A stretch of 64,000 nucleotides of DNA from Aspidapion aeneum (Eukaryota; Arthropoda; Insecta; Coleoptera; Brentidae). The notes under the pieces were generated by a model. That model had not been told where the DNA came from. It did not search any database and saw only the letters and a program-made list of their open reading frames with translations. Positions 3,001 to 64,000 of this stretch are shown one piece after another. The DNA is taken from the NCBI GenBank assembly GCA_963576565.1, contig CAUYVT010000084.1, positions 1 to 64,000 on the forward strand. Reading direction: 5' to 3'. The translations under genes were made by a program, and so were the position numbers. How positions within the stretch are numbered: position 1 is the stretch's first letter; each line of letters opens with the position of its first letter.

Positions 3001-6000
3001 AATTTAGCTCTTCGGCCATACAAATTTTCTTTAAATAGTACGTGAAAATTTAGCTCTTCGGCCATACAAATTTTCTTTAAAAGGTACGTGAAAATTTAGC
3101 TCTTCGGACATACAAATTTTCTTTAAAAAGTACGTTAAAATTTAGCTCTTCGGCCGTACAAATTTTCTTTAAAAGGTACGTGAAAATTTAGCTCTTCGGC
3201 CATACAAATTTTCTTTAAATAGTACGTGAAAATTTAGCTCTTCGGCATACAAATTTTCTTTAAATAGTACGTGAAAATTTAGCTCTTCGGCCATACAAAT
3301 TTTCTTTAAAAGGTACGTGAAAATTTAGCTCTTCGGACATACAAATTTTCTTTAAAAGGTACGTGAAAATTAGCCCTTCGGCCATACAAATTTTCTTTAA
3401 ATAGTACGTGAAAATTTAGCTCTTCGGCCGTACAAATTTTCTTTAAATAGTACGTGAAAATTAAGCTCTTCAGCCATACAAATTTTCTTTAAAAGGTACG
3501 TGAAAATTTAGCTCTTTGGCCATACAAATTTTCTTTAAATAATACGTGAAATTTTAGCTCTTCGGCCATACAAATTTTCTTTAAAAGGTACGTGAAAAAT
3601 TTAGCTCTTCGGCCATACAAATTTTCTTTAGAAGGTACGTGAAAATTTGAGTCTTCGGCCATACAAATTTTCTTTAGAAGGTACGTGAAAATTTGGGTCT
3701 TCGGCCGTACAAATTTTCTTTAAATAGTACTTGAAAATTTAGCTCTTCGGCCATACAAATTTTCTTTAAATAGTACGTGAAAATTTAGCTCTTCGGCCAT
3801 ACAAATTTTCTTTAAAAGGTACGTGAAAATTTAGCTCTTCGGACATACAAATTTTCTTTAAAAAGTACGTTAAAATTTAGCTCTTCGGCCGTACAAATTT
3901 CTTTAAAAGGTACGTGAAAATTTAGCTCTTCGGCCATACAAATTTTCTTTAAAAGGTACTTGAAAATTTAGCTCTTCGGCCATACAAATTTTCTTTAAAG
4001 GGTACGTGAAAATTTAGCTCTTCGGCATACAAATTTTCTTTAAAAGGTACGTGAAAATTTAGCTCTTCGGCCATACAGATTTTCTTTAAATAGTACGTGA
4101 TAATTAGCTCATCGGCCGTACAAATTTTCTTTAAATAGTACGTGAAAATTTAGCTCTTCGGCCGTACAAATTTTCTTTAAATAGTACGTGAAAAATTAGC
4201 TCTTCGGCCGTACAAATTTTCTTAAATAGTACGTGCAAATTTAGCTCTTTGGCCGTACAAATTTTCTTTAAATAGTACGTGAAAATTTAGCTCTTCGGCC
4301 ATACAAATTTTCTTTAAATAGTACGTGAAATTTAGCTCTTCGGCCATACAAATTTTCTTTAAAAGGTACGTGAAAATTTAGCTCTTCGGCCATACAAATT
4401 TTCTTTAGAAGGTACGTGAAAATTTGAGTCTTCGGCCATACAAATTTTCTTTAGAAGGTACGTGAAAATTTGGGTCTTCGGCCGTACAAATTTTCTTTAA
4501 ATAGTACTTGAAAATTTAGCTCTTCGGCCATACAAATTTTCTTTAAATAGTACGTGAAAATTTAGCTCTTCGGCCATACAAATTTTCTTTAAAAGGTACG
4601 TGAAAATTTAGCTCTTCGGACATACAAATTTTCTTTAAAAAGTACGTTAAAATTTAGCTCTTCGGCCGTACAAATTTTCTTTAAAAGGTACGTGAAAATT
4701 TAGCTCTTCGGCCATACAAATTTTCTTTAAATAGTACGTGAAAATTTAGCTCTTCGGCCATACAAATTTTCTTTAAATAGTACGTGAAAATTTAGCTCTT
4801 CGGCCATACAAATTTTCTTTAAAAGGTACGTGAAAATTTAGCTCTTCGGACATACAAATTTTCTTTAAAAGGTACGTGAAAATTTAGCTCTTCGGCCATA
4901 CAAATTTTCTTTAAAAGGTACGTGAAAATTTAGCTCTTCGGCCGTAAAAATTTTCTTTAAAAGGTACGTGAAAATTTAGCTCTTCGGCCATACAAATTTT
5001 CTTTAAATAGTACGTGAAAATTTAGCTCTTCGGCCATACAAATTTTCTTTAAAAGGTACGTGAAAATTTAGCTCTTCGGCCATACAAATTTTCTTTAAAG
5101 GGTACGTGAAAATTTAGCTCTTCGGCCGTACAAATTTTCTTTAAAAGGTACGTGAAAATTTAGCTCTTCGGCCATACAAATTTTCTTTAAAAGGTACGTG
5201 AAAATTTGGGTCTTCGGCCATACAAATTTTCTTTAAATAATACGTGAAAATTTAGCTCTTCGGCCGTACAAATTTTGTTTAAATAGTACGTGAAAATTTA
5301 GCTCTTCGGCCGTACAAATTTTCTTTATATAGTACGTGAAAATTTAGCTCTTCGGCCGTACAAATTTTCTTTAAATAGTACGTGAAAATTTAGCTCTTCG
5401 GCCATACAAATTTTCTTTAAAAGGTACGTGAAAATTTAGCTCTTCGGCCATACAAATTTTCTTTAAAAGGTACGTAAAAATTTAGCTCTTCGGCCATACA
5501 AATTTTCTTTAAATAGTACGTGAAAATTTAGCTCTTCGGCTGTACAAATTTTCTTTAAATAGTACGTGAAAATTTAGCTCTTCGGCCATACAAATTTTCT
5601 TTAAATAGTACGTGAAAATTTAGCTCTTCGGCCATACAAATTTTCTTTAAAAGGTACGTGAAAATTTAGCTCTTCGGCCGTACAAATTTTCTTTAAAAGG
5701 TACGTGAAAATTTAGCTCTTCGGCCGTACAAATTTTCTTTAAATAGTACGTGAAAATTTAGCTCTTCGGCCATACAAATTTTCTTTAAATAGTACGTGAA
5801 AATTTAGCTCTTCGGCCATACAAATTTTCTTTAAAAGGTACGTGAAAATTTAGCTCTTCGGCCGTACAAATTTTCTTTAAAAGGTACGTGAAAATTTAGC
5901 TCTTCGGCCGTACAAATTTTCTTTAAATAGTACGTGAAAATTTAGCTCTTCGGCCATACAAATTTTCTTTAAAAGGTACGTGAAAATTTAGCTCTTCGGC

Positions 6001-34016: not shown

Positions 34017-34553
34017 TAGTTTTTTAAAATTTGTTTGCTAAAAATATTAGATTTTTACCCTCGCCATCTTGATTCGTTTGTTGCCGTGTCCGGTTTAGAA
34101 AGGAGGTTCCGTCCCCCCTTGCGTGGCTTAACGGTGACTCCACCCACATTTCATTGCAGCCGAAATTGGCACTTCGTACGTCGTTTGTTTTGATTCAAAA
34201 ATCGAAATTTGTTTAAATAATAGTTATTTGTTTAAATAATATGTTATAGTTATTCAAAACAACAAAAGTGCTTGTGAGTTGAATGCTTTATTCTTATTTA
34301 ACAGGTAAACAAACACATCTGGTAGAATTAGTATTTACCTGTAAATTATAAGTAAACGGTAGTAGGTACAATTTGTTTTCTGTGCATTTATTTTGGGAGA
34401 AAAATCGCGACCTAGGATAACAGTTTTTGCATTTATTCGAGAAATCGATAATAAAATATATGCTGTCGAACTCTTTTGGACTGATTAAAGTCAATAGGGG
34501 TCAAGTGTTAGTTTTATTCCTTTTAAATATTTTTTATTTTTTTAATTAACAAT
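34017..34553 (+). other. 5' leader of the BEL/Pao element
   Basis: This non-coding leader lies between the primer-binding site and the gag-pol start. It is AT-rich, with a weak pyrimidine tract and CAG ending at 34,304 that could act as a 3' splice site. It probably contains the packaging signal, which is not visible by sequence alone. No other gene is seen. Confidence 0.5.
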
Positions 34554-37500
34554 ATGTCGTTAAAAAAGCTTGAGAATCAACGCAAAGTTTCAATATCTCG
34601 TATTACGGAAACGTATAACTTGGGAACAAAAGCTAAATCAGATAGTTCTTCCTTGCCAATTTTTAAGGCGTTTTACGAATCGTTAGATGATCACTATGAA
34701 CAATTTAAAAACATTCATAATGACATCATAGGTCTCTTGAAAGACGACGACAATGATGAGTTCGAAGTACAAGACAAAATTAGGAAAGATACGGATCTAT
34801 TCTACCACCAAGCTAAAGTTCTTTTTTCGAGTTTATGTTCCGATTCAGTTCATTCAAATTTCACCCCCGCAACTTCACACTATTCACGTAGCGATGATCT
34901 GGGCCCTTTAAAGGTACCTTGCTTTAATGGAAACGTAAAAAAGTGGCCAACCTTTTACGATGTTTATTCTTGTTTGGTTCACGAAAACTCTAATTATTCC
35001 GATATAAGGAAATTTCAACATTTGCTAACCTTCCTTGAGGGCGAACCACTTAATATTTTAAGCTCTATAAAATTAACGGCAAGTAATTACGCAATCGCCT
35101 GGAAGGTATTAACAGATCGCTATCAAAATAAAAGACTTTTAGCCAGTACCTACTGGAACTCAATCTACTATGCAAATTCTTTAAAGGGAAACCAGTCAGC
35201 AAAGGATCTTAGAGTCTTGGTAGATACCTTTTCCGAGAATATTGCGGCGCTCGAAAATCTTGAATTTCCAGTAACGTCGTGGTGTTTTTGTTTATTTTCA
35301 ATTTTATTATCAAAAATCGATCAAACCACAAGAACCGCTTTCGAATTAAAGTATAGTACTACCGAGATTCCAACATATCAAAATCTAATTCAGTTTCTTA
35401 TTAACCAATGCCGTGCTCTTGAAACAGTACAGCTATCTCCCCAAAATACGCAAATGCAACCTTCGACTTCCAAACAGCAAAAACCAAATTATTCGAATTC
35501 TAGTAACCAAAAATATAATTCTTATTCAAATAATCAGTACAAATCAAGCCCTCCATCAAATTTTTTAGCGCATACGCACTCACAAGTATCAAATAAACAA
35601 TCCAATATTCAATTTCGACAAAACCAACAACCCTATAGGTGCAAATTATGCAATAATTCTTTTCATCCACTCTCGCAGTGTGGTGTTTTTATCTCCAAAT
35701 CTCCTTCAGATCGTTTTACTTATGTAAAACAACAATCGTTATGTATCAACTGTTTACGTTCAAATCATCAAGTAATTGACTGCAGTAGTACCTACAACTG
35801 CAGGGTATGTCGACATAGGCACCATAGTCTTATTCATCTATCGCAAACGACAGATTCAATCCGTCAGAATTCAAGTCAATCCTTTGTTAATTCAAGCCAA
35901 AATTCAAATCAAAATTCGAACTTAAATCAAAGTTTTAATTCAAATCAAGTGGCCGTGCCTAGCACAGGCACAAACTTATCGTATCAGAATTCAAATTCAA
36001 GTCTTAGCCAACAGAACCCTAGTTTTGTTCAACCCAGTTCAAATTCAATTCAAATCAATTCGAATCCAAATACATCTACAAATCAATACTCTTCGTTATC
36101 CACCTTGACGCCCCGGACGACAGTGCTTCTAGCGACTATAAAATTAGAGGTACTCGATAGTCGGGGTAACTACCAACCTGTCCGAGCACTTCTGGACAGC
36201 GGTAGCCAAGCTAACCTGATAAGCGAAGCTTGTCTTAACAGGTTAGGCTTGCCAAGAAACAAAATTTCGATCCCTGTTCTGGGACTAAATCAATCTTCAT
36301 CGGCCACTAACGGCATTTCTACTTGCACTATTCGAGCCCTAGGCCAACAAGAGCCTACCTTTTCTATTCAAGTCTTCGTTTTACCGAAACTCTGTTCGAA
36401 TATGCCCTCAATACAGGTAGATTCATCCAATTGGAGTCATATTTCAAATCTAAAGCTTGCAGATAACCAATTTTACAACCCTGGTCCAATTGACTTACTC
36501 TTAGGTGCACAACTTTACACAGAAATCGTCCAATCAGGACGAATTCCAGGACCTCACGGCCTACCCTCCGCTTTTGAGACAGTTTTTGGTTGGGTCTTGA
36601 TGGGCCAAACTCAAAGCATAAATATTTCACCTCAAGTCAATTCGTACTTTACTTCCTGTGAGCAGTCTCTCGACTTTAATATTCGCAGATTTTGGGAACT
36701 AGAATCAATTAAGTCAAAAACGTTTCTCTCACCCGAAGAAAAAAGATGTGAAGAGATTTTCCAAAAAACTACCACTAGAGATATTTCGGGCCGATTTACT
36801 GTAAATTTGCCTTTTCGTCACATTGACCCTCCTGACCTAGGAGACACATATTCAGTGGCCTACCGTCAATTTTTGTCTCTCGAATCTCGCTTAATAAAAA
36901 ATTCAAATTTCTATAGTATGTACTCGGATTTTATGAGAGAATATCTCAAAAACGGGCACATGTCTTTAATTCCAAGATCCGAACCTAGACCTCAGTTATG
37001 TTCTTATTTACCACATCACGGAGTCCTTCGTCTTGACAAATCAACGACTAAACTCCGGGTGGTTTTTAACCCCTCGATTAAGGGTTCGAAAGGCCTAAGC
37101 ATGAACGAAACTCTTTTAATAGGACCAAAATTACAAGCCGATATTTCCGAAATTCTATTAAAATTCAGATTTTATTCTATCGTATTTTTGACTGATATAA
37201 AACAGCACTTTTTACAAATTCAAATTAATCCAATTCATCGGGACTACCAAAGGCTACTTTGGCGATTTGATCCCAATGAACCCCTGCAGGAATACAGGCT
37301 TAATACAGTGACGTTTGGTGTTAGTTCAAGTCCCTATTTAGCTATTAGAACTCTTAGAGAACTAGCCATCCTGGAGGCTAAGAATTATCCTGAAGCATCC
37401 CAGGTCCTTTTGAATAACATTTTCATGGACGATATTTGCTGTGGAGCTAACTCTCTAGAAGGTGCTTTATCACTTCAAAAAGATCTCATAGCGTTGCTTA

Positions 37501-39980
37501 AATTGGGAAAATTTGAATTAAGAAAATGGGCATCAAATAATCCGAAACTTCTTTCACATTTGTCGCCCGCCGATTGTCAGATCCCTGTTACCTTTGAAGA
37601 CGATTCTTCAACATCAATTAAGGTGTTGGGCCTTCAGTGGCACCCTTCTACAGATACTTTTACCTATTCTTGTACCCCTTGTGAAAAACCTTGCACCAAA
37701 AGGAATATTTTATCGGCTATCGCTAAAATTTGGGATCCTATAGGTTTCTTATCGCCTGTTTCATTTTTAGCCAAAGTGATTATGCAAAAACTTTGGTTAT
37801 GCAAAACTGATTGGGATGAAATACCCCCCGATCCAATCAAAACTCTTTGGAATCAATTCAATAATCAATTAACCACTCTTTCGAATCTTTGTATACCTAG
37901 ACATATTTTTTCGAATAATATTCAACGATGTCAATTGCTAGGTTTCTGCGATGCATCCGAGCTAGGATACGCTTCTTGCGTATACGTTCGCGTCGAATTA
38001 CCAAATAAAATTATCAAAACTGCTCTAATCATGGGCAAGTCAAGGGTTGCTCCCTTACACACTATTTCAATCCCACGTTTGGAACTACTTGGAGCTACTC
38101 TATTAGCTGATTTACTCGAACTAGTTATTCGCACCTATTCATCATTACTCGTAATCGATGAAATTCTTGCGTTCTCGGACTCACAGGTCACGCTTCATTG
38201 GGTCACATCTTCACCTCACAAGTGGAAGACCTTTGTGGCAAACCGCGTGAGTCGTATTCAAGAAACAATCCCCGAAGTCCCATGGTATCACATTACTTCA
38301 CTCGAGAACCCTGCCGACTGCGCTAGCAGAGGGTTGTCGCCCAATAACTTAATAAATCACCCTCTTTGGTTTCACGGCCCTCCATGGATTACCTTGCCCA
38401 CTACGGAGTGGCAAATTCAAAGGTTTATAAATGAACGTTCTTTGGGAGTTCCAGACGAGGTTCTCAAAGAAGAAAAACCGGAAAATTCAGTGGTGCTGAC
38501 GGCAGAAATTCAAAATCAAAACTTTTTTGATAGATTAATCGATAAAATATCCAATTTAAATACCATTCAAAAAATCATTTGTCATTTTCTAAGACTTATT
38601 CACAATCGAAAAACCTCAGCTGACCCTTTATCCGGCGTTTTTTCCGCTTTTGAACTACACAAGGCTCTACTTGTTTTAGTTAAAAGGGTCCAAGAAGAGT
38701 GTTTTTCGGATATCATTCAAAAAATTCAAAATACTCAGCTATTACCTAAGCCGTTTCGTAAACTCGCGCCCTTTTTGGACGAATTGGGTTTCCTTAGAGT
38801 GGGCGGACGCTTACGGCATTCTCAACTCTCCTTTGAGGCAAAACATCCCTTATTATTGCCGAAATCTCATAGATTAACCCAATTGATCATTATTCAAACT
38901 CATAACGAAAATTTACATCCCGGAATAAACACAGTCCAATACTTAATTCGTCAAAAGTTTTGGATTATGTCATCACGTCGAGCTATTCAGAGGGTTTTAT
39001 TGAAATGTATTCCCTGCTTTCGCTTAAAACCAAAACCTTACACTCCGTACATGTCGGATTTACCTTCTTTTAGAACGTCACAATTAAAATGTTTTTCACA
39101 CGTTTGCTTAGACTATGCAGGCCCAATCAAAACCTTTGTAGGTCAGAGACGTCGTGGAGCACAAGTTGGTAAATCATATATCGCAGTCTTTGTCGATACT
39201 TCTGTCAAGGCAATCCATATCGAGCTTGTTTCGGATTTAACCACAGAGGCGTGCATCGCTGCGTTACGACGCTTTGTCGCTAGACGTGGCACTTGTGTCC
39301 AAATCACAAGTGATAGAGGCTCAAACTTTGTTGGGGCTATTAAGGAGCTCCATAATCTTTCGAAATTAGCTTCTGAGAGCTTAAAAATCAAATGGTGTCT
39401 TAATAGTCCGGGAGCCCCCCACCTAAATGGTCTAGCAGAAGCAGGAGTCAAATCTATAAAAACACATTTGTATCGGGTCATCGGTGACCAGATACTAACC
39501 TTCGAAGAGCTCTATACTCTCCTCGCCCAAATAGAGGCATTACTCAATTCTCGACCCCTTTGTGAGCAAAGCTCTGACCCAAACGATCTTACGTCTTTGA
39601 CTCCGGGTCATTTCCTCACAATGGAACCCCTTAATTCGTGTCCTGATCCTGACCTTTCTACCCTTAAAGTTAATACCCTTAAGCGTTGGCAACTTATCCA
39701 ACGAATTCATGCCGATTTCTGGAAGCGTTGGAAACTCGAGTACTTAAATACTTTACAACAGCGTTCTAAGTGGTCGGACCCTTCGGTTGAAATCAAGCTA
39801 GATACGCTTGTATTAATTAAGGATGAAACTAGGCCGCCATTACACTGGTTGCTGGGTAGAATAGTATCTGTACATCCTGGTCGGGATAATCACATTCGAG
39901 TTGCTACTGTTAAAACACAACACGGACTTTTCACTCGTCCCGTGGTCAAGTTGTGCCCACTACCTTTAGATGCGCACTAA
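34554..39980 (+). CDS. BEL/Pao gag-pol polyprotein
   Basis: One intact 1,808-residue frame encodes all proteins for capsid formation, reverse transcription and integration. Residues ~115-255 resemble DUF1759 gag. Residues ~290-360 and ~440-530 are rich in Asn, Gln and Ser. Between ~361 and 430 lie two CX2CX4HX4C zinc knuckles and a third, CCHH knuckle, a usual BEL/Pao pattern. The aspartic protease motif is LLDSGSQANLIS (Asp548). The reverse transcriptase has its first Asp in LTDIKQ (Asp881) and the catalytic pair in FMDD (Asp959, Asp960), where many relatives have YVDD. RNase H begins at FCDAS (Asp1133) and includes SIPRLELLGATLL and FSDSQ. The integrase has a zinc site (His1450, Cys1485, Cys1488) and the triad Asp1520, Asp1587, Glu1629. 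The tail (LGRIVSVHPG, RPVVKLCPLP) is DUF5641-like. The start is the first ATG in frame; no frameshift separates gag from pol. Confidence 0.96.
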   Translation: MSLKKLENQRKVSISRITETYNLGTKAKSDSSSLPIFKAFYESLDDHYEQFKNIHNDIIGLLKDDDNDEFEVQDKIRKDTDLFYHQAKVLFSSLCSDSVHSNFTPATSHYSRSDDLGPLKVPCFNGNVKKWPTFYDVYSCLVHENSNYSDIRKFQHLLTFLEGEPLNILSSIKLTASNYAIAWKVLTDRYQNKRLLASTYWNSIYYANSLKGNQSAKDLRVLVDTFSENIAALENLEFPVTSWCFCLFSILLSKIDQTTRTAFELKYSTTEIPTYQNLIQFLINQCRALETVQLSPQNTQMQPSTSKQQKPNYSNSSNQKYNSYSNNQYKSSPPSNFLAHTHSQVSNKQSNIQFRQNQQPYRCKLCNNSFHPLSQCGVFISKSPSDRFTYVKQQSLCINCLRSNHQVIDCSSTYNCRVCRHRHHSLIHLSQTTDSIRQNSSQSFVNSSQNSNQNSNLNQSFNSNQVAVPSTGTNLSYQNSNSSLSQQNPSFVQPSSNSIQINSNPNTSTNQYSSLSTLTPRTTVLLATIKLEVLDSRGNYQPVRALLDSGSQANLISEACLNRLGLPRNKISIPVLGLNQSSSATNGISTCTIRALGQQEPTFSIQVFVLPKLCSNMPSIQVDSSNWSHISNLKLADNQFYNPGPIDLLLGAQLYTEIVQSGRIPGPHGLPSAFETVFGWVLMGQTQSINISPQVNSYFTSCEQSLDFNIRRFWELESIKSKTFLSPEEKRCEEIFQKTTTRDISGRFTVNLPFRHIDPPDLGDTYSVAYRQFLSLESRLIKNSNFYSMYSDFMREYLKNGHMSLIPRSEPRPQLCSYLPHHGVLRLDKSTTKLRVVFNPSIKGSKGLSMNETLLIGPKLQADISEILLKFRFYSIVFLTDIKQHFLQIQINPIHRDYQRLLWRFDPNEPLQEYRLNTVTFGVSSSPYLAIRTLRELAILEAKNYPEASQVLLNNIFMDDICCGANSLEGALSLQKDLIALLKLGKFELRKWASNNPKLLSHLSPADCQIPVTFEDDSSTSIKVLGLQWHPSTDTFTYSCTPCEKPCTKRNILSAIAKIWDPIGFLSPVSFLAKVIMQKLWLCKTDWDEIPPDPIKTLWNQFNNQLTTLSNLCIPRHIFSNNIQRCQLLGFCDASELGYASCVYVRVELPNKIIKTALIMGKSRVAPLHTISIPRLELLGATLLADLLELVIRTYSSLLVIDEILAFSDSQVTLHWVTSSPHKWKTFVANRVSRIQETIPEVPWYHITSLENPADCASRGLSPNNLINHPLWFHGPPWITLPTTEWQIQRFINERSLGVPDEVLKEEKPENSVVLTAEIQNQNFFDRLIDKISNLNTIQKIICHFLRLIHNRKTSADPLSGVFSAFELHKALLVLVKRVQEECFSDIIQKIQNTQLLPKPFRKLAPFLDELGFLRVGGRLRHSQLSFEAKHPLLLPKSHRLTQLIIIQTHNENLHPGINTVQYLIRQKFWIMSSRRAIQRVLLKCIPCFRLKPKPYTPYMSDLPSFRTSQLKCFSHVCLDYAGPIKTFVGQRRRGAQVGKSYIAVFVDTSVKAIHIELVSDLTTEACIAALRRFVARRGTCVQITSDRGSNFVGAIKELHNLSKLASESLKIKWCLNSPGAPHLNGLAEAGVKSIKTHLYRVIGDQILTFEELYTLLAQIEALLNSRPLCEQSSDPNDLTSLTPGHFLTMEPLNSCPDPDLSTLKVNTLKRWQLIQRIHADFWKRWKLEYLNTLQQRSKWSDPSVEIKLDTLVLIKDETRPPLHWLLGRIVSVHPGRDNHIRVATVKTQHGLFTRPVVKLCPLPLDAH

Positions 39981-58891: not shown

Positions 58892-59757
58892 CAATGAATA
58901 GAGTTTTACCCTACAAAAGGTCCGGTAGTTCTGAATTTTGGATATGTTATTAAGGTCGAAAGGGTAGTTAAAAATCTGAGTTTTCGTCACCCCCACCCCT
59001 GTGTTTCCTCCGCCATCTTGAAAAAACCAACAAAAATTGGCACTTTTTGCAGTTTTTTGCCTTTAGTTTCGTTCCAGTACATTAAATCGCAAAAAGAGTT
59101 ATATGAAATTTTTTAGAGGATAAAATTATCTACAATTGGGTGGTACTATGGTTGTTCTGCGAGCAGTAGTAACGGAGCTAGGTAATTTCCAAAAATGACT
59201 AAAATCACGTGCTTGGGCCAATTTTCAGATTTTTTCTACTTCAGACGGCATAAGCTCCGAAATACTTTGTTCTAGGCTAAAAGTTCTAAGGACATATCTT
59301 GTAAAGAATTTTATCAGCTACGAAATCCATTCTTTAAATGTATTTTTAAATATTGTAATAGAGTGGGAGTAACTTTTAACTTAAAGTAAGTAAGTTAGAA
59401 GATAATAATTTTTTAAAATTTAGTGCTTTAAAGGTGCCGTTTTTTATTTATTTTTATTTTTTTGTGTAAATTTAGTGACGTACAAAAAGGTAAGAGAGCC
59501 TAGGGGTCAAACACCTCCTTAAACTAACCACCTCTTCAAAAACCCCCCCCAAACCCCCCAAAATCTCACGTATTTAGGTTTTCTCAAATTTTCTCAAAAA
59601 ATACGCTTCTAAGAGAAAAATGTGTAATATACTTTATTGTAGACAATGAAATTTCCTTTTGAAAAAGGTACAACTCGATGGGGGTCAACTTTATAAACTC
59701 TTCAGCGGCGTCCGTTAATAGAAGTAATTTTAAAAAGTCAAAAATATTCATTTTAGA
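58892..59757. mobile_element. Foldback element 2, cut off by the Gypsy insertion
   Basis: It begins CAATGAATAGAG and its left arm (to about 59,385) matches the left arm of foldback 1 directly. The following interior, from the TAAGTAAGTTAGAAG region to about 59,751, is the reverse complement of foldback 1 from about 57,605 back to 57,241. So its interior has the opposite orientation. It stops where the Gypsy LTR starts; the missing ~700 bp should lie beyond the window on the far side of that element. Confidence 0.8.
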
Positions 59758-60090
59758 TGCGAGCTTAATAAAAACTCTTTTTTAAAAAATAACTTTATTT
59801 TATTTAGTCACTTTTACAAATAAGACAACTTTAAAGTTAGATGTGAACCGTTTAGATGCTAAGTCAAACCTAAAAGACGTTGTTTACCTGCTAGCCTACT
59901 TATAGTTACAAGAGTGCTGACACAGCTTCGCGTGGGTTCCCGAAGAATATGGAAGTAAACATGTTTATCAAATGACTTTTATATGATCTTGAAAACAATA
60001 GCAATATTGTGCAATTATGGTACTACGTCTTAACTTATTCTAGAAACTACGCATTAAGTAAATACACCTACGCATATTTTTAATATAACA
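59758..60090 (-). repeat. 3' LTR of the Gypsy element (boundaries inferred)
   Basis: On the minus strand the segment starts TGTTATATT directly after a purine tract and ends GCTCGCA, where similarity to foldback 1 resumes within a few bases. That gives about 333 bp. It holds a TATA-like TATAAAAGT at about 59,975-59,983 and two overlapping AATAAA signals at 59,794-59,804. The partner LTR is outside the window, so the edges could shift by some bases. An alternative start, AGTTGTTAT, would fit the AGT ends of many errantiviruses. Confidence 0.65.
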
Positions 60091-60177: not shown

Positions 60178-61251
60178 TTAAACATAAGATTTTCTTAAAA
60201 CATTAGTATTTAATTCAATATCTTCTTCGATTGGCTCTGTAAGCCTTATTGATGGCCTACGCCTAGCTATTGAAAATCTTTTGCCTAAACTTGATAAACT
60301 TGATATATTTGGTGATGGTGGAAAATCATTGTTATCAGTATTATTTTCGATGCCTATACGTACATTTTTAGCTCTTCGATTTTTACATTTACAATAAAAG
60401 TAAATTAAAACTAAAACCATAATCAAAGCCAATACAAGATATGTAAGCCATGAATGATATTTTTCAATGTCAGGTTCATTGATTAAATCATCCAATTCAT
60501 TTGCATATTGATCTAATTTATGTTTAGCAATTTCCAAATCTTCCAAATTTAGTTTTGTTATTTTTAAAGGTTTTAATCTAGGAAGATTTCTAAGTTTTTC
60601 TGGATATTTTTCACAACAATTGAAAGGAATTTGAATAAAATTTGAATAATTATAACTTAAATCAAGTGTTTGTAATTGATTGGCTTGGATTTTAGTTGAT
60701 CCTACAAAAGCTGAACAATATGGTTTTAAAGACAAAATTACATTTTTTGTTACAATTTTCGAAATAGTATCAGTGTTACATTTTATTGTAATTGGAAGTT
60801 GATTTGTTACACTTATTAGCCAAACATTATTTTGTAAAATTTGAATATTATAATCTTCTGCTAAAATCAAAACTAACTCACAGGTTTTTGGAAAAGTTAA
60901 CAATTTTTGAGTTCTTAATAACTGAGCTTCACAAATTGAATTGCTATCAATCGGAAGAGGATATAAATTTTTACAAATTTTCATTTTATAGCCCAAATCC
61001 CTACAAGTGTCAATTTCTGATAAAGACAAATAGAAATCATCATCGTTATCTTTAGCAATATATTTCTTACTAACAGGCAAAATATGATGTAACATAGTTC
61101 GACTATCATAAATTGGTATTGGGTACAATCGGAAAACGGAATACCATTCTGGTCGAACCAATGGTATGTCCAAGACAAAAACAAGTCTTTCATTTGTAAT
61201 ATAAGCATTCAAATCAATAATATCTAAGTATGTTGCAATTCTATCGTCCAT
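60178..61251 (-). pseudogene. env, C-terminal part (separate frame after a frameshift)
   Basis: This 357-codon frame encodes the distal ectodomain and membrane anchor of the Gypsy envelope protein. It has several cysteines (for example residues 83, 93, 107, 124, 158, 179, 212 and 213), a coiled-coil-like stretch rich in Leu, Asp and Lys at ~229-262, one transmembrane helix at ~267-288 (WLTYLVLALIMVLVLIYFY), a CKCK membrane-proximal motif and a basic cytoplasmic tail of ~65 residues. The first ATG is not a true start: the frame is already open upstream and lines up with the end of the preceding env fragment, which ends in a stop 1 codon-phase away at 61,268. An AAATAAT string there suggests a one-base change. 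The protein type is known as F-like in errantiviruses; activity of this copy is not expected. Confidence 0.8.
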
Positions 61252-61267
61252 GGGTGCTACCGGTAAA

Positions 61268-61927
61268 TTATTTGTATGTAAATTTTGGGCAATTTGTTTT
61301 TAAAGCATTAGTTAAATCATTAGGAAGGATAATACTTGTATGAATAATTTTTAATCTGGCAAAAGAAATTGAATCTAATACATCCGTTATTTGAGATTGA
61401 ATATAAGTGTATGATTCCAATAATTGTTCACAAATATTAATAAAATAAAATTTAAGATTAAGAAGTTCGATTTCATCATGAATCTGATGTATTGATTTTG
61501 AAATTTCAATTATATTGGAGTTGAAAGTTTCTTCATCAATTTGAAGTTTGCGCAAAGTTGCATTAAATTGTTTTATTACTGACGTAGTAACACTTATTTG
61601 ATTTTTCATTAAGTTTTCCAATTCTTTATCATCTTTTTCAATTTTATTGATACAATTTTCATAATATTGACCGTCAGCTGCATCTAAATTTCCCGTTATG
61701 TACTTCCAAACAGTACCAAGAGCGTTTATTAAACCTCTTTTACGTCTTGGTGTGTAAGGCATGTCTGAATAGATTTCATTAAATTTCTTGGTTATATCAT
61801 TGGAAATTTGAAATAAAAGTGACACGTGTGGTCTTATATCTAAGTGGATCATTTTAATATTTCCAGTTGATTGATGAAGCATTAAGCGTAAGCTATCTAA
61901 AATAACATTATTCCATCCATTTATCAT
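61268..61927 (-). pseudogene. env, N-terminal part with furin-like site (frameshifted)
   Basis: This 219-codon frame is the proximal part of the Gypsy envelope. Residues 61-65 read RRKRG, a furin-type cleavage site, and are followed by LINALG and a conserved GNLDAAD stretch, the signature around the fusion peptide of errantivirus and baculovirus F-like proteins. A helical region follows at ~85-165. The apparent ATG is within the coding region: the preceding codons, in another frame after a good splice acceptor at 62,035, encode a hydrophobic segment and run into this region across a CCATCCAT direct repeat at 61,913-61,920, consistent with a 4-bp duplication. The frame ends early at a stop at 61,268-61,270, where the rest of env continues in a different frame. 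So two lesions break env. Confidence 0.8.
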
Positions 61928-62052
61928 TTGATACCTTTATACTAAGTTCTTTATGAAAATAAACACCTACGGTATTATTTATTTCATCGATCTTGTATTG
62001 TCCTTTTCCCCATCCGATAAGGAAAACGAGTAATCTGAAACAAGGAAAAGTT
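61928..62052 (-). promoter_or_regulatory. env splice acceptor and broken leader
   Basis: On the minus strand CTTTTCCTTGTTTCAG ends at 62,035, a strong 3' splice site 18 bases after the pol stop. It would produce the spliced env mRNA known from errantiviruses. The sequence after it opens with a hydrophobic signal-like run in a frame that differs from the next env fragment. The splice donor would lie beyond the window. Confidence 0.6.
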
Positions 62053-64000
62053 TCAGTCAGAATCAGAGTCTGAATCGGGTTTATGACAAGGTTTTAAAAG
62101 ATCAAAATTATATTTTGAAGTTTGTTTAGTTATTGGATTATAAACAGTTGCAGAATTATTTGAAATTGCTCTAATTTCAAAAGGTCCATTAAATTTAGGT
62201 GATAATTTTCCAGTAATTTGAGTTTCTTTCACGAAAACTCTATCGCCTACTTTAAATTCATAATTTGGAGTTACGTGTTTATCGAATCTTTCTTTAGCTT
62301 TTTGTTTTGACAGTTTTGTTCTTGATCTAGCTATACGATAATAATGTTTGATCCTTGCATTTAAATCTCTGATATATTTGCAAATAAGTTCTTCTTCATT
62401 GTAAAGAGTTTCTGGAGGTCTTGCTGCTGTATGTCCAAAAACTAACTCGTACGGTGTAAATCCATGAGTTTTACATGTTGAATTGTTATAACAAATGACA
62501 GTAAATGGTAACAATTGTAGTGGATGTTCTTCAGGACTTTCTGTTTTACAAACTCTGATCATTTCTAATAATGTTGCATGAAATCTTTCTAAACTTCCAT
62601 TTGATTGTGGATGTCCTGTACTTGAAAAAGTTAGTTTGATATCGTACATCTTACACAAGTCTTTTAAAAGCTGATTATTAAATTCTCTACCTAAATCCGT
62701 ATGGATTCTTAAAGGAGTTCCATAATGTTGAAAAAATAATAATAGTGTATTAACAATTGATTTTGCAGTTTTATCATTTAATGGATAAGCTTGAATGAAT
62801 TTTGTCAATTCGTCTCTTATTGTTAAAACCAAATTTCTTTCTGGAATTTCTAAAATATCTAGATTAATTCTTTCAAATGGTGTTTTTGGAGTTTCAGTAA
62901 TCACAAGTGGATTGTCCAAATTTTTTCTTAAAATTTTATTTCTTTGACATATTTCACATTGGTTTATAAATTTTTCAACATCTTTGGTTAAATTTTTCCA
63001 ATTATATTTTTCTTTAATTCTCCTAATTGTTTCATTAATTCCCCTATGAAAATTCTTTTTTCCGGAATGATATTGATCAATTATTATTTGTCTTTGATCT
63101 TCTACTGCCTCAGTAACTATATCTTGACAAATTACTAAATTTAAATCTTTTTCAGCAAAGACAAAACAGAGCATTTCTAAAATTGGTAAATCTACATTAT
63201 TTTCAACATAGAATGTTTTGGAGATATCAATGTCATTTTGACATCTACATAAAATTTTGAAAAGAGTTAAATTGGCTTCTTCCTCAACATACGGTACTGG
63301 AATTATAAAATATTTTCGTTTATTAACTGTTTTTGAAGAACAAATATTAATTTTATTTAAATCAAAGTTAAGTTCTTCATCTAATATGTCACTTATTATA
63401 GTATGATGTTTTTCTTTTAAGTTATCTTGTTGAAAAATGGTTATAATATTTTTGTGTTTTTTATCCAATAGTTGATCATTTGTATATCTAATCTTTGAAT
63501 AATCAATTAATGATGTTGTTTGATATAAATTGTGAAATCTCTTAAATTCATTTTCCAAAGTTTGAGGAGACATTAAAGCTAGTTCATCTTCAACTATATT
63601 TTCTGATTCATTGGAATTTTCATCTTCTGTAAGGGCATTAATTAAAGCAGATCTTTTATCTGGTAAAATATAAATATTTATTTGTATATCAGTTGATTGA
63701 AAGGTTGATTTAATCATTGCCAATATAACGTTCCAATCGAGTGAGTCTAAACTACATGCTATTTTGGGTATAGCTAAATATTTCTCGTTATTTTGCAGAA
63801 GAATATTTTTTAAGTTTTGCAAAATTTGATAAATTGTATCATATGTTGGCTTTTGATAGTATAATTCTTTTGTAACTAAATAGTAAATAGTTCTGTTGGA
63901 TAGTTGTAAAGTTGCTATTTCACCAATTTGTTTATTTTGTTCTTTTAAATAATCTACATTATCAAATCTTTCTTTGAATTCTTTTGCAATTCCCTTTTTC
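62053..64000 (-). CDS. Gypsy pol, partial: OARD1/TARG1-like macrodomain plus integrase
   Basis: The frame is open from the window edge to the stop at 62,053; the codon at 63,822 is TTG inside the frame, not a start. The upstream part (63,999 to about 63,665) matches the fold of the OARD1/TARG1 macrodomain: GIA near 63,990, GEIATL, IYYLVTK, KPTY, then IPKIACSLDSLDW. The Lys codon at 63,868-63,870 and the Asp codon at 63,745-63,747 align with TARG1 catalytic Lys84 and Asp125. Counting from 63,822, a ~180-residue acidic linker follows, then the integrase: zinc site His252, His259, Cys289, Cys292; triad Asp322, Asp376, Glu412 (D-35-E); GPF module at 545-548; and a tail of Ser-Asp repeats. RT and RNase H should lie beyond the edge. 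Role: integration of element DNA in the nucleus; the macrodomain may bind or remove ADP-ribose, which is inference. Confidence 0.88.
   Translation of the reverse strand, partial: KKGIAKEFKERFDNVDYLKEQNKQIGEIATLQLSNRTIYYLVTKELYYQKPTYDTIYQILQNLKNILLQNNEKYLAIPKIACSLDSLDWNVILAMIKSTFQSTDIQINIYILPDKRSALINALTEDENSNESENIVEDELALMSPQTLENEFKRFHNLYQTTSLIDYSKIRYTNDQLLDKKHKNIITIFQQDNLKEKHHTIISDILDEELNFDLNKINICSSKTVNKRKYFIIPVPYVEEEANLTLFKILCRCQNDIDISKTFYVENNVDLPILEMLCFVFAEKDLNLVICQDIVTEAVEDQRQIIIDQYHSGKKNFHRGINETIRRIKEKYNWKNLTKDVEKFINQCEICQRNKILRKNLDNPLVITETPKTPFERINLDILEIPERNLVLTIRDELTKFIQAYPLNDKTAKSIVNTLLLFFQHYGTPLRIHTDLGREFNNQLLKDLCKMYDIKLTFSSTGHPQSNGSLERFHATLLEMIRVCKTESPEEHPLQLLPFTVICYNNSTCKTHGFTPYELVFGHTAARPPETLYNEEELICKYIRDLNARIKHYYRIARSRTKLSKQKAKERFDKHVTPNYEFKVGDRVFVKETQITGKLSPKFNGPFEIRAISNNSATVYNPITKQTSKYNFDLLKPCHKPDSDSDSD

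Follow-up and report, generated by a model that had tools for sequence, protein, structure and literature searches.

A predicted TARG1-type macrodomain in Pol of a Ty3/Gypsy element present in many copies in the beetle Aspidapion aeneum

Does the Pol polyprotein of a beetle retroelement contain a host-type domain for the removal of ADP-ribose and, if so, what might the domain do there? The question is raised by one end of a 64,000-nucleotide stretch of the Aspidapion aeneum genome (1.286 Gb), C94:1-64000 (contig CAUYVT010000084.1), which as a whole is called the window. A first-pass annotation of the window had read a macrodomain of the OARD1/TARG1 family upstream of the integrase of a Gypsy element and in the same frame, at the very point where the window ends. 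Flanking bases past 64000 were also examined, and they confirm this arrangement: the Pol open frame (C94:66393-62053, minus strand) runs for 1446 codons without a stop and continues beyond the window end, and the order of domains along it is protease, reverse transcriptase (RT), RNase H, macrodomain and integrase (Pfam on pieces of Pol). RT and RNase H thus lie upstream of the macrodomain in the same frame, as the annotation had suggested might be found past position 64,000. The macrodomain is about 147 residues long and starts 77 bases beyond the window end.

By sequence and predicted fold, this macrodomain is of the TARG1/OARD1 type. It matched human TARG1 (4j5r) in phmmer with an expectation value (E) of 2.8e-33 over residues 4-138 of 147 (identity 43-44%); the human TARG1 entries scored E about 3e-33, whereas the next-ranked macrodomain reached only 0.029. 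An AlphaFold2 model of the window-family macrodomain (predicted local distance difference test score 91.7) was compared using Foldseek, and the best match was 4j5s_A with a template modeling score (TM) of 0.91 and a root mean square deviation of 1.0; ranks 1-8 were all TARG1 chains, with bacterial DarG next. A domain of the MacroD or alphavirus type is ruled out by these phmmer and Foldseek rankings. The family assigned in the first-pass annotation is upheld, but the extent given there (about 110 residues) was too short. The equivalents of Lys84 and Asp125, which the annotation had recognized as kept, are present in 35 of 35 family copies (positions from the alignment with human TARG1; copies chosen by macrodomain match). 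This pair is described as the catalytic dyad of TARG1 in PMC9411070, the second residue being printed as Glu125 in PMC7050489.

The arrangement is not confined to the window. In a genome search with the macrodomain, in which the best 150 of 289 candidates were scored (all E 1.8e-29 or better), at least 115 near-identical copies were found (at least 94% identity over at least 137 of the 147 residues), and at least 35 of these sit in frames of 1444-1480 codons with no stop within the match; some adjacent rows on contig C4 are possibly duplicates of one insertion. Given this number of copies and of full-length frames, the arrangement has therefore multiplied.

The element in the window is a Ty3/Gypsy (Metaviridae) insertion: Gag, the order of Pol, the long terminal repeats (LTRs) and the target duplication all fit. 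Its features are as follows, in window positions or, beyond the window, in C94 positions.

C94:68178-68517: 5' LTR
C94:67616-66273, minus strand: Gag, 447 codons, in another frame than pol, upstream of and overlapping pol
62053..64000, minus strand: Pol frame, in-window part (whole frame C94:66393-62053)
63637..64000, minus strand: predicted TARG1-type macrodomain, in-window part (whole domain C94:63637-64077, Pol residues 773-919)
62935..63099, minus strand: integrase zinc-binding domain (H2C2), PF17921, E 5.9e-17
62608..62880, minus strand: integrase core (rve), PF00665, E 4.3e-10
61268..61936, minus strand: env first piece, baculovirus-F-like, PF12259, E 2.7e-6
60178..61299, minus strand: env second piece, baculovirus-F-like, PF12259, E 9.7e-23
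59750..60090, minus strand: 3' LTR, 341 bases
59746-59749 and C94:68517-68520: target duplication ATTC (4 bp)

The RT and RNase H regions of Pol matched Pfam with E 6.1e-36 and E 2.9e-39, respectively, and the aspartyl protease match was weak and sub-threshold (18.5 bits vs a cut-off of 24.3). Comparison of the two LTRs revealed one gap and zero substitutions. In the window copy, env lies downstream of pol and is split over two overlapping frames; judged by this predicted baculovirus-F-like env alone, the element qualifies as errantivirus-like (i.e., an insect Gypsy with env).

A diverged sister family of six loci (L048-L053) carries a macrodomain of 51-60% identity, also between RNase H and integrase. 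Three of the six loci show protease, RT, RNase H, macrodomain and integrase, and the other three show part of this order. The identities between the window's family and this sister are 54-60% for the macrodomain, 48-52% for the protease, 77-80% for the RT, 79-83% for the RNase H and 77-80% for the integrase. Regarding selection, the ratio of nonsynonymous to synonymous substitution rates (dN/dS) between the two families was 0.28-0.31 for the macrodomain (four loci), 0.28-0.31 for the protease (three loci), 0.05-0.06 for the RT (two of three loci, the third being saturated) and 0.08-0.11 for the RNase H (three loci), while dS of the integrase was saturated in three of three comparisons; all of these are Nei-Gojobori (NG86) estimates only, at an interfamily dS near or past saturation. 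In codon bootstraps for the macrodomain, with saturated draws scored as zero, the medians were 0.29-0.30 and all 95% ranges fell within 0.11-0.55. A dN/dS of about 0.3 indicates that the macrodomain was constrained during the divergence of the two families, about as much as the protease, and the purifying selection for which the first-pass annotation had proposed a test is thereby supported. The seven within-family copy pairs (dN/dS 0.25, 0.48, 0.84, 0.91, 0.96, 1.21 and 1.58) mostly reflect decay after insertion. Among the 35 copies, the ratio of nonsynonymous to synonymous polymorphism (pN/pS) in the macrodomain was 0.08 (shared) and 0.10 (single), but it is not used as support because these copies were selected by macrodomain match; the protease segment had no coverage in this comparison.

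Not all relatives carry the domain. In a genome search with the RT (best 150 of 10988 candidates scored), the next family below the window's own showed 87% RT identity and comprised at least 17 copies with Pol frames of 1327-1341 codons. In both of the two copies read from this family the macrodomain is absent, and RNase H runs directly into the pre-integrase region. Loss of the domain in this sister and gain in the others both stand as possible orders of events. The genome thus offers a natural comparison between closely related families that bear the domain and ones that lack it, both kinds being multicopy and having long open frames. The RT of the window's family is closer to that of the macro-less sister (87%) than to that of the macro-bearing sister (about 80%), whereas its integrase is closer to that of the macro-bearing sister (82-85%) than to that of the macro-less one (67-69%). 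Fisher tests of this contrast, with counts entered by hand, gave p values of 0.07 and 0.048, which can be taken only as a hint, at the level of sequence, that recombination may have occurred around RNase H among the window's family, L048-L053 and L064-L065.

TARG1-type domains are found in three placements in Pol across three RT lineages. Insertion between RNase H and integrase, for which the annotation had suggested searching insect genomes, is borne out by the families above but is one of these three placements. In lineage V, which comprises other RT types of the same genome, the domain lies between protease and RT: nine of the 11 mapped loci have the order protease, macrodomain, RT, and L004 and L063 show macrodomain and RT only. 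L007 of this lineage has a 1525-codon frame, and its macrodomain matched human TARG1 with E 4.1e-29 and a predicted fold at TM 0.86 to TARG1; the macrodomain of this second lineage passes the Pfam Macro model (28.4 bits vs a cut-off of 22). Among public proteins, P0026 and P0027 have the macrodomain ahead of the protease, as does P0028, which is truncated at its start, and P0035 has it ahead of the RT, with no protease found. The RT tree splits the lineages W, V and M. Beyond the window's family, 22 of 25 element macrodomains keep the Lys/Asp pair; the remaining three come from copies that have suffered a deletion or whose frame is broken. P0032 from Molorchus minor, with an M-like macrodomain containing a deletion, has no Pfam Pol domain and was not counted as an element.

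The trees bear on how often the domain was acquired. In the macrodomain tree, the window's family stands near P0035 and some stand-alone proteins (supports 93/86 and 92/89), V1 pairs with V2, V3 with V5 and V4 with M. According to the approximately unbiased (AU) test, a single clade of all element macrodomains had p 0.216, so a single origin is neither demonstrated nor rejected; the values for the V-lineage macrodomains as one clade were 0.095 with P0035 and 0.289 without it, and that for W plus V as one clade was 0.054. One V family groups with M by its macrodomain (98/98) and with V by its RT (short RT pieces), which hints at a possible transfer of the macrodomain between lineages. Because the placements differ and this family is discordant, repeated capture or transfer appears likely. 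Regarding a cellular source, the genome search, which ranked element copies first, turned up no intact host OARD1 consisting of this single domain. A lone 150-codon TARG1-like frame (L056, C9, 1563-2012, minus strand) has no Pol neighbours and an altered GCG loop, and is a candidate host gene or retrocopy. The macrodomain genes L001-L003 have Pfam Macro matches but were rejected as the source of the TARG1-type domain, the two element macrodomains having no match in them at E <= 1. Two scans of viral contigs found no relative.

The closest characterized protein is human TARG1 (also OARD1, C6orf130), an ALC1-like macrodomain hydrolase, with which the element domain shares 43-44% identity, the predicted fold and the Lys/Asp pair; human TARG1, however, is a free-standing enzyme with an intact GCG loop, whereas the element domain lies inside Pol, has Ala for the first Gly and is only predicted to be active. 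Another host-type nucleotide-handling enzyme that has been captured into polyproteins is dUTPase, which differs in fold and substrate and whose position differs between retroviruses. It is described from betaretroviruses and fungal chromoviruses (PMC2774666). The chromodomain of chromoviruses is likewise a chromatin-related host domain added to Ty3/Gypsy Pol (described in the same source), but it is found at the C-terminus of the integrase and reads histone marks, whereas the macrodomain lies ahead of the integrase or elsewhere and is eraser-like. The nearest known arrangement, also in reverse-transcribing elements of animals, is that of Epsilon-like endogenous retroviruses of ray-finned fish, which have macrodomain open reading frames (Basta et al. 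2009, as cited in PMC4977317); compared by description, these are additional frames in Retroviridae, whereas here the domain is part of a Gypsy Pol frame. The macrodomains of alphaviruses and coronaviruses, which are embedded in polyproteins and are described as countering host ADP-ribosylation (PMC7232374), are structurally farther (13-18% identity vs 43% for TARG1). A literature full-text search (top matches for broad queries, subscription papers mostly outside) found no macrodomain in Ty3/Gypsy Pol, in agreement with the annotation, which knew of no such description, and a term search of the survey of viral ADP-ribose biology PMC9503650 returned no mention of retrotransposons, Metaviridae, errantiviruses or TARG1. 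Macrodomains of RNA viruses and captured dUTPases and chromodomains of retroelements are already known, but no TARG1-type eraser in Gypsy Pol was found in the literature searched.

The same domain type is also joined to other enzymes. DNA ligase III-like proteins (P0029, P0031, P0033, P0034; P0012) carry a TARG1-like domain, which in P0029 and P0033 is flanked by the C-terminal domain of the ligase on one side and by the LIG3 BRCT on the other, and so accompanies an enzyme of DNA ends; unlike the retroelements, these are cellular proteins, and they tie TARG1-type erasers to DNA ends. In P0025, a protein from a set of transcriptomes of marine microbial eukaryotes, NADAR is joined to a TARG1-like macrodomain.

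Regarding function, we give an even chance to the reading that the Pol-embedded TARG1-type macrodomain of this multicopy Gypsy is an ADP-ribose hydrolase that helps the element against host ADP-ribosylation. Human TARG1 is reported to hydrolyse ester-linked protein ADP-ribose and ADP-ribose on nucleic-acid ends (PMC7050489, PMC11088682) and to remove thymidine-linked ADP-ribose from DNA (PMC8501950). The element domain would fold and cut in the same manner, acting presumably on mono-ADP-ribose that is ester-linked to Glu/Asp, on ADP-ribose at the ends of DNA and RNA and on thymidine-linked ADP-ribose. As part of Gag-Pol it would be packaged with RT and integrase and, freed or tethered within the particle, would be present at Gag-Pol stoichiometry. 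There it could strip host-added ADP-ribose from element proteins, RNA or cDNA ends, and a host ADP-ribosylation response might so be undone during reverse transcription or integration. The target of the macrodomain is the weakest step of this mechanism. An active domain would point to retroelements being under pressure from ADP-ribosylation, of which there is little direct evidence.

Some observations weigh against the macrodomain assignment and others against a hydrolase that serves the element in this way. Regarding the assignment, the window copy scored 15.9 bits with Pfam Macro, under the cut-off of 22, and a genome scan with that model returned ten places without the window locus; of two checks proposed in the first-pass annotation, the search with the Pfam Macro profile therefore stayed below threshold, whereas structure prediction gave the TARG1 fold. 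Regarding the role, the GCG loop before Asp125 has Ala for its first Gly in all 35 family copies (Ala-Cys-Gly). The annotation had read two replacements, Ala and Ser; the Ala is family-wide, whereas the Ser in place of the last Gly occurs in the window copy alone (1/35, Ala-Cys-Ser). Two stand-alone TARG1-like proteins, P0015 and P0022, also have Ala at the first position, so the GCG loop is not strictly defining for the type. In addition, the macrodomain (54-60% identity) has changed more quickly than have RT, RNase H and integrase (77-83%), the estimates of constraint suffer from the saturation noted above, and the macrodomain is dispensable for amplification, since the sister with 87% RT identity and long Pol frames lacks it in both copies read. 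For this last reason the macrodomain is better regarded as an optional helper, comparable to the dUTPase of certain retroviruses, than as a core replication enzyme. Host conflict is favoured over a core role because the domain is absent from a successful sister, changes faster and is carried by unrelated viruses. Among predicted viral protein structures, the best match was VP8 (43% identity) of Kadipiro virus, a reovirus found in insects, and the next named matches were from a Frankliniella flavi-like virus (34%) and then from thrips virga-like viruses.

The same unrelated viruses fit conflict better than a house-cleaning role, in which the domain would clear O-acetyl-ADP-ribose or derivatives of ADP-ribose from the particle or the cell as a dUTPase-like metabolic aid without any host conflict. 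We know of no need of reverse transcription for such an activity and consider this role improbable, even though O-acetyl-ADP-ribose is given as a TARG1 substrate (PMC7050489) and some retroelement polyproteins are reported to contain dUTPases (PMC2774666). Somewhat more credible, though still unlikely, is a reader rather than an eraser, i.e., a domain that attaches to DNA breaks or to ADP-ribosylated chromatin and directs the integrase there, as the chromovirus chromodomain is thought to do. The macrodomain of the window's family does adjoin the integrase, Ty3/Gypsy integrases are known to have captured chromodomains (PMC2774666), and some macrodomains are described as binders only (PMC11088682); other lineages, however, place the domain away from the integrase (in the protease/RT interval or ahead of the protease), and Lys and Asp are retained, although a domain that only reads could do without them.

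That the domain is a functionless passenger, a captured host sequence on its way to being lost, would agree with the close sister family without it and with its faster evolution relative to RT. We rate this slightly below the house-cleaning role, as dN/dS is about 0.3 with bootstrap ranges below 0.6, the catalytic pair is retained across families at 40-60% identity, at least 35 copies have full-length frames, and the domain recurs in three lineages. A chance fusion or assembly error in a single copy has next to no probability left. The window end falls within the domain, and the initial observation alone could not exclude such an accident, which the annotation itself had named as a host OARD1 gene joined by chance in this copy only; it is refuted because the near-identical copies are spread over many contigs and the diverged sister has the macrodomain joined in at the same place. 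Beyond the hydrolase reading for this family, it is conceivable, and rather less probable than that reading itself, that Ty3/Gypsy elements repeatedly took up TARG1 at three Pol sites because host ADP-ribosylation restricts them, with the counter-enzyme carried in the particle. Were this true, ADP-ribosylation would be an anti-retroelement defence of invertebrates.

Two further frames were recorded. In a V1 element (L012), a 521-codon frame downstream of pol (3837-5399, plus strand) is a possible env, with no Pfam match at cut-off. The window itself also contains a Bel/Pao-type element (34527-39980, plus strand), the 1817-codon open frame of which comprises DUF1759, protease, RT, Pao peptidase A17, integrase and DUF5641.
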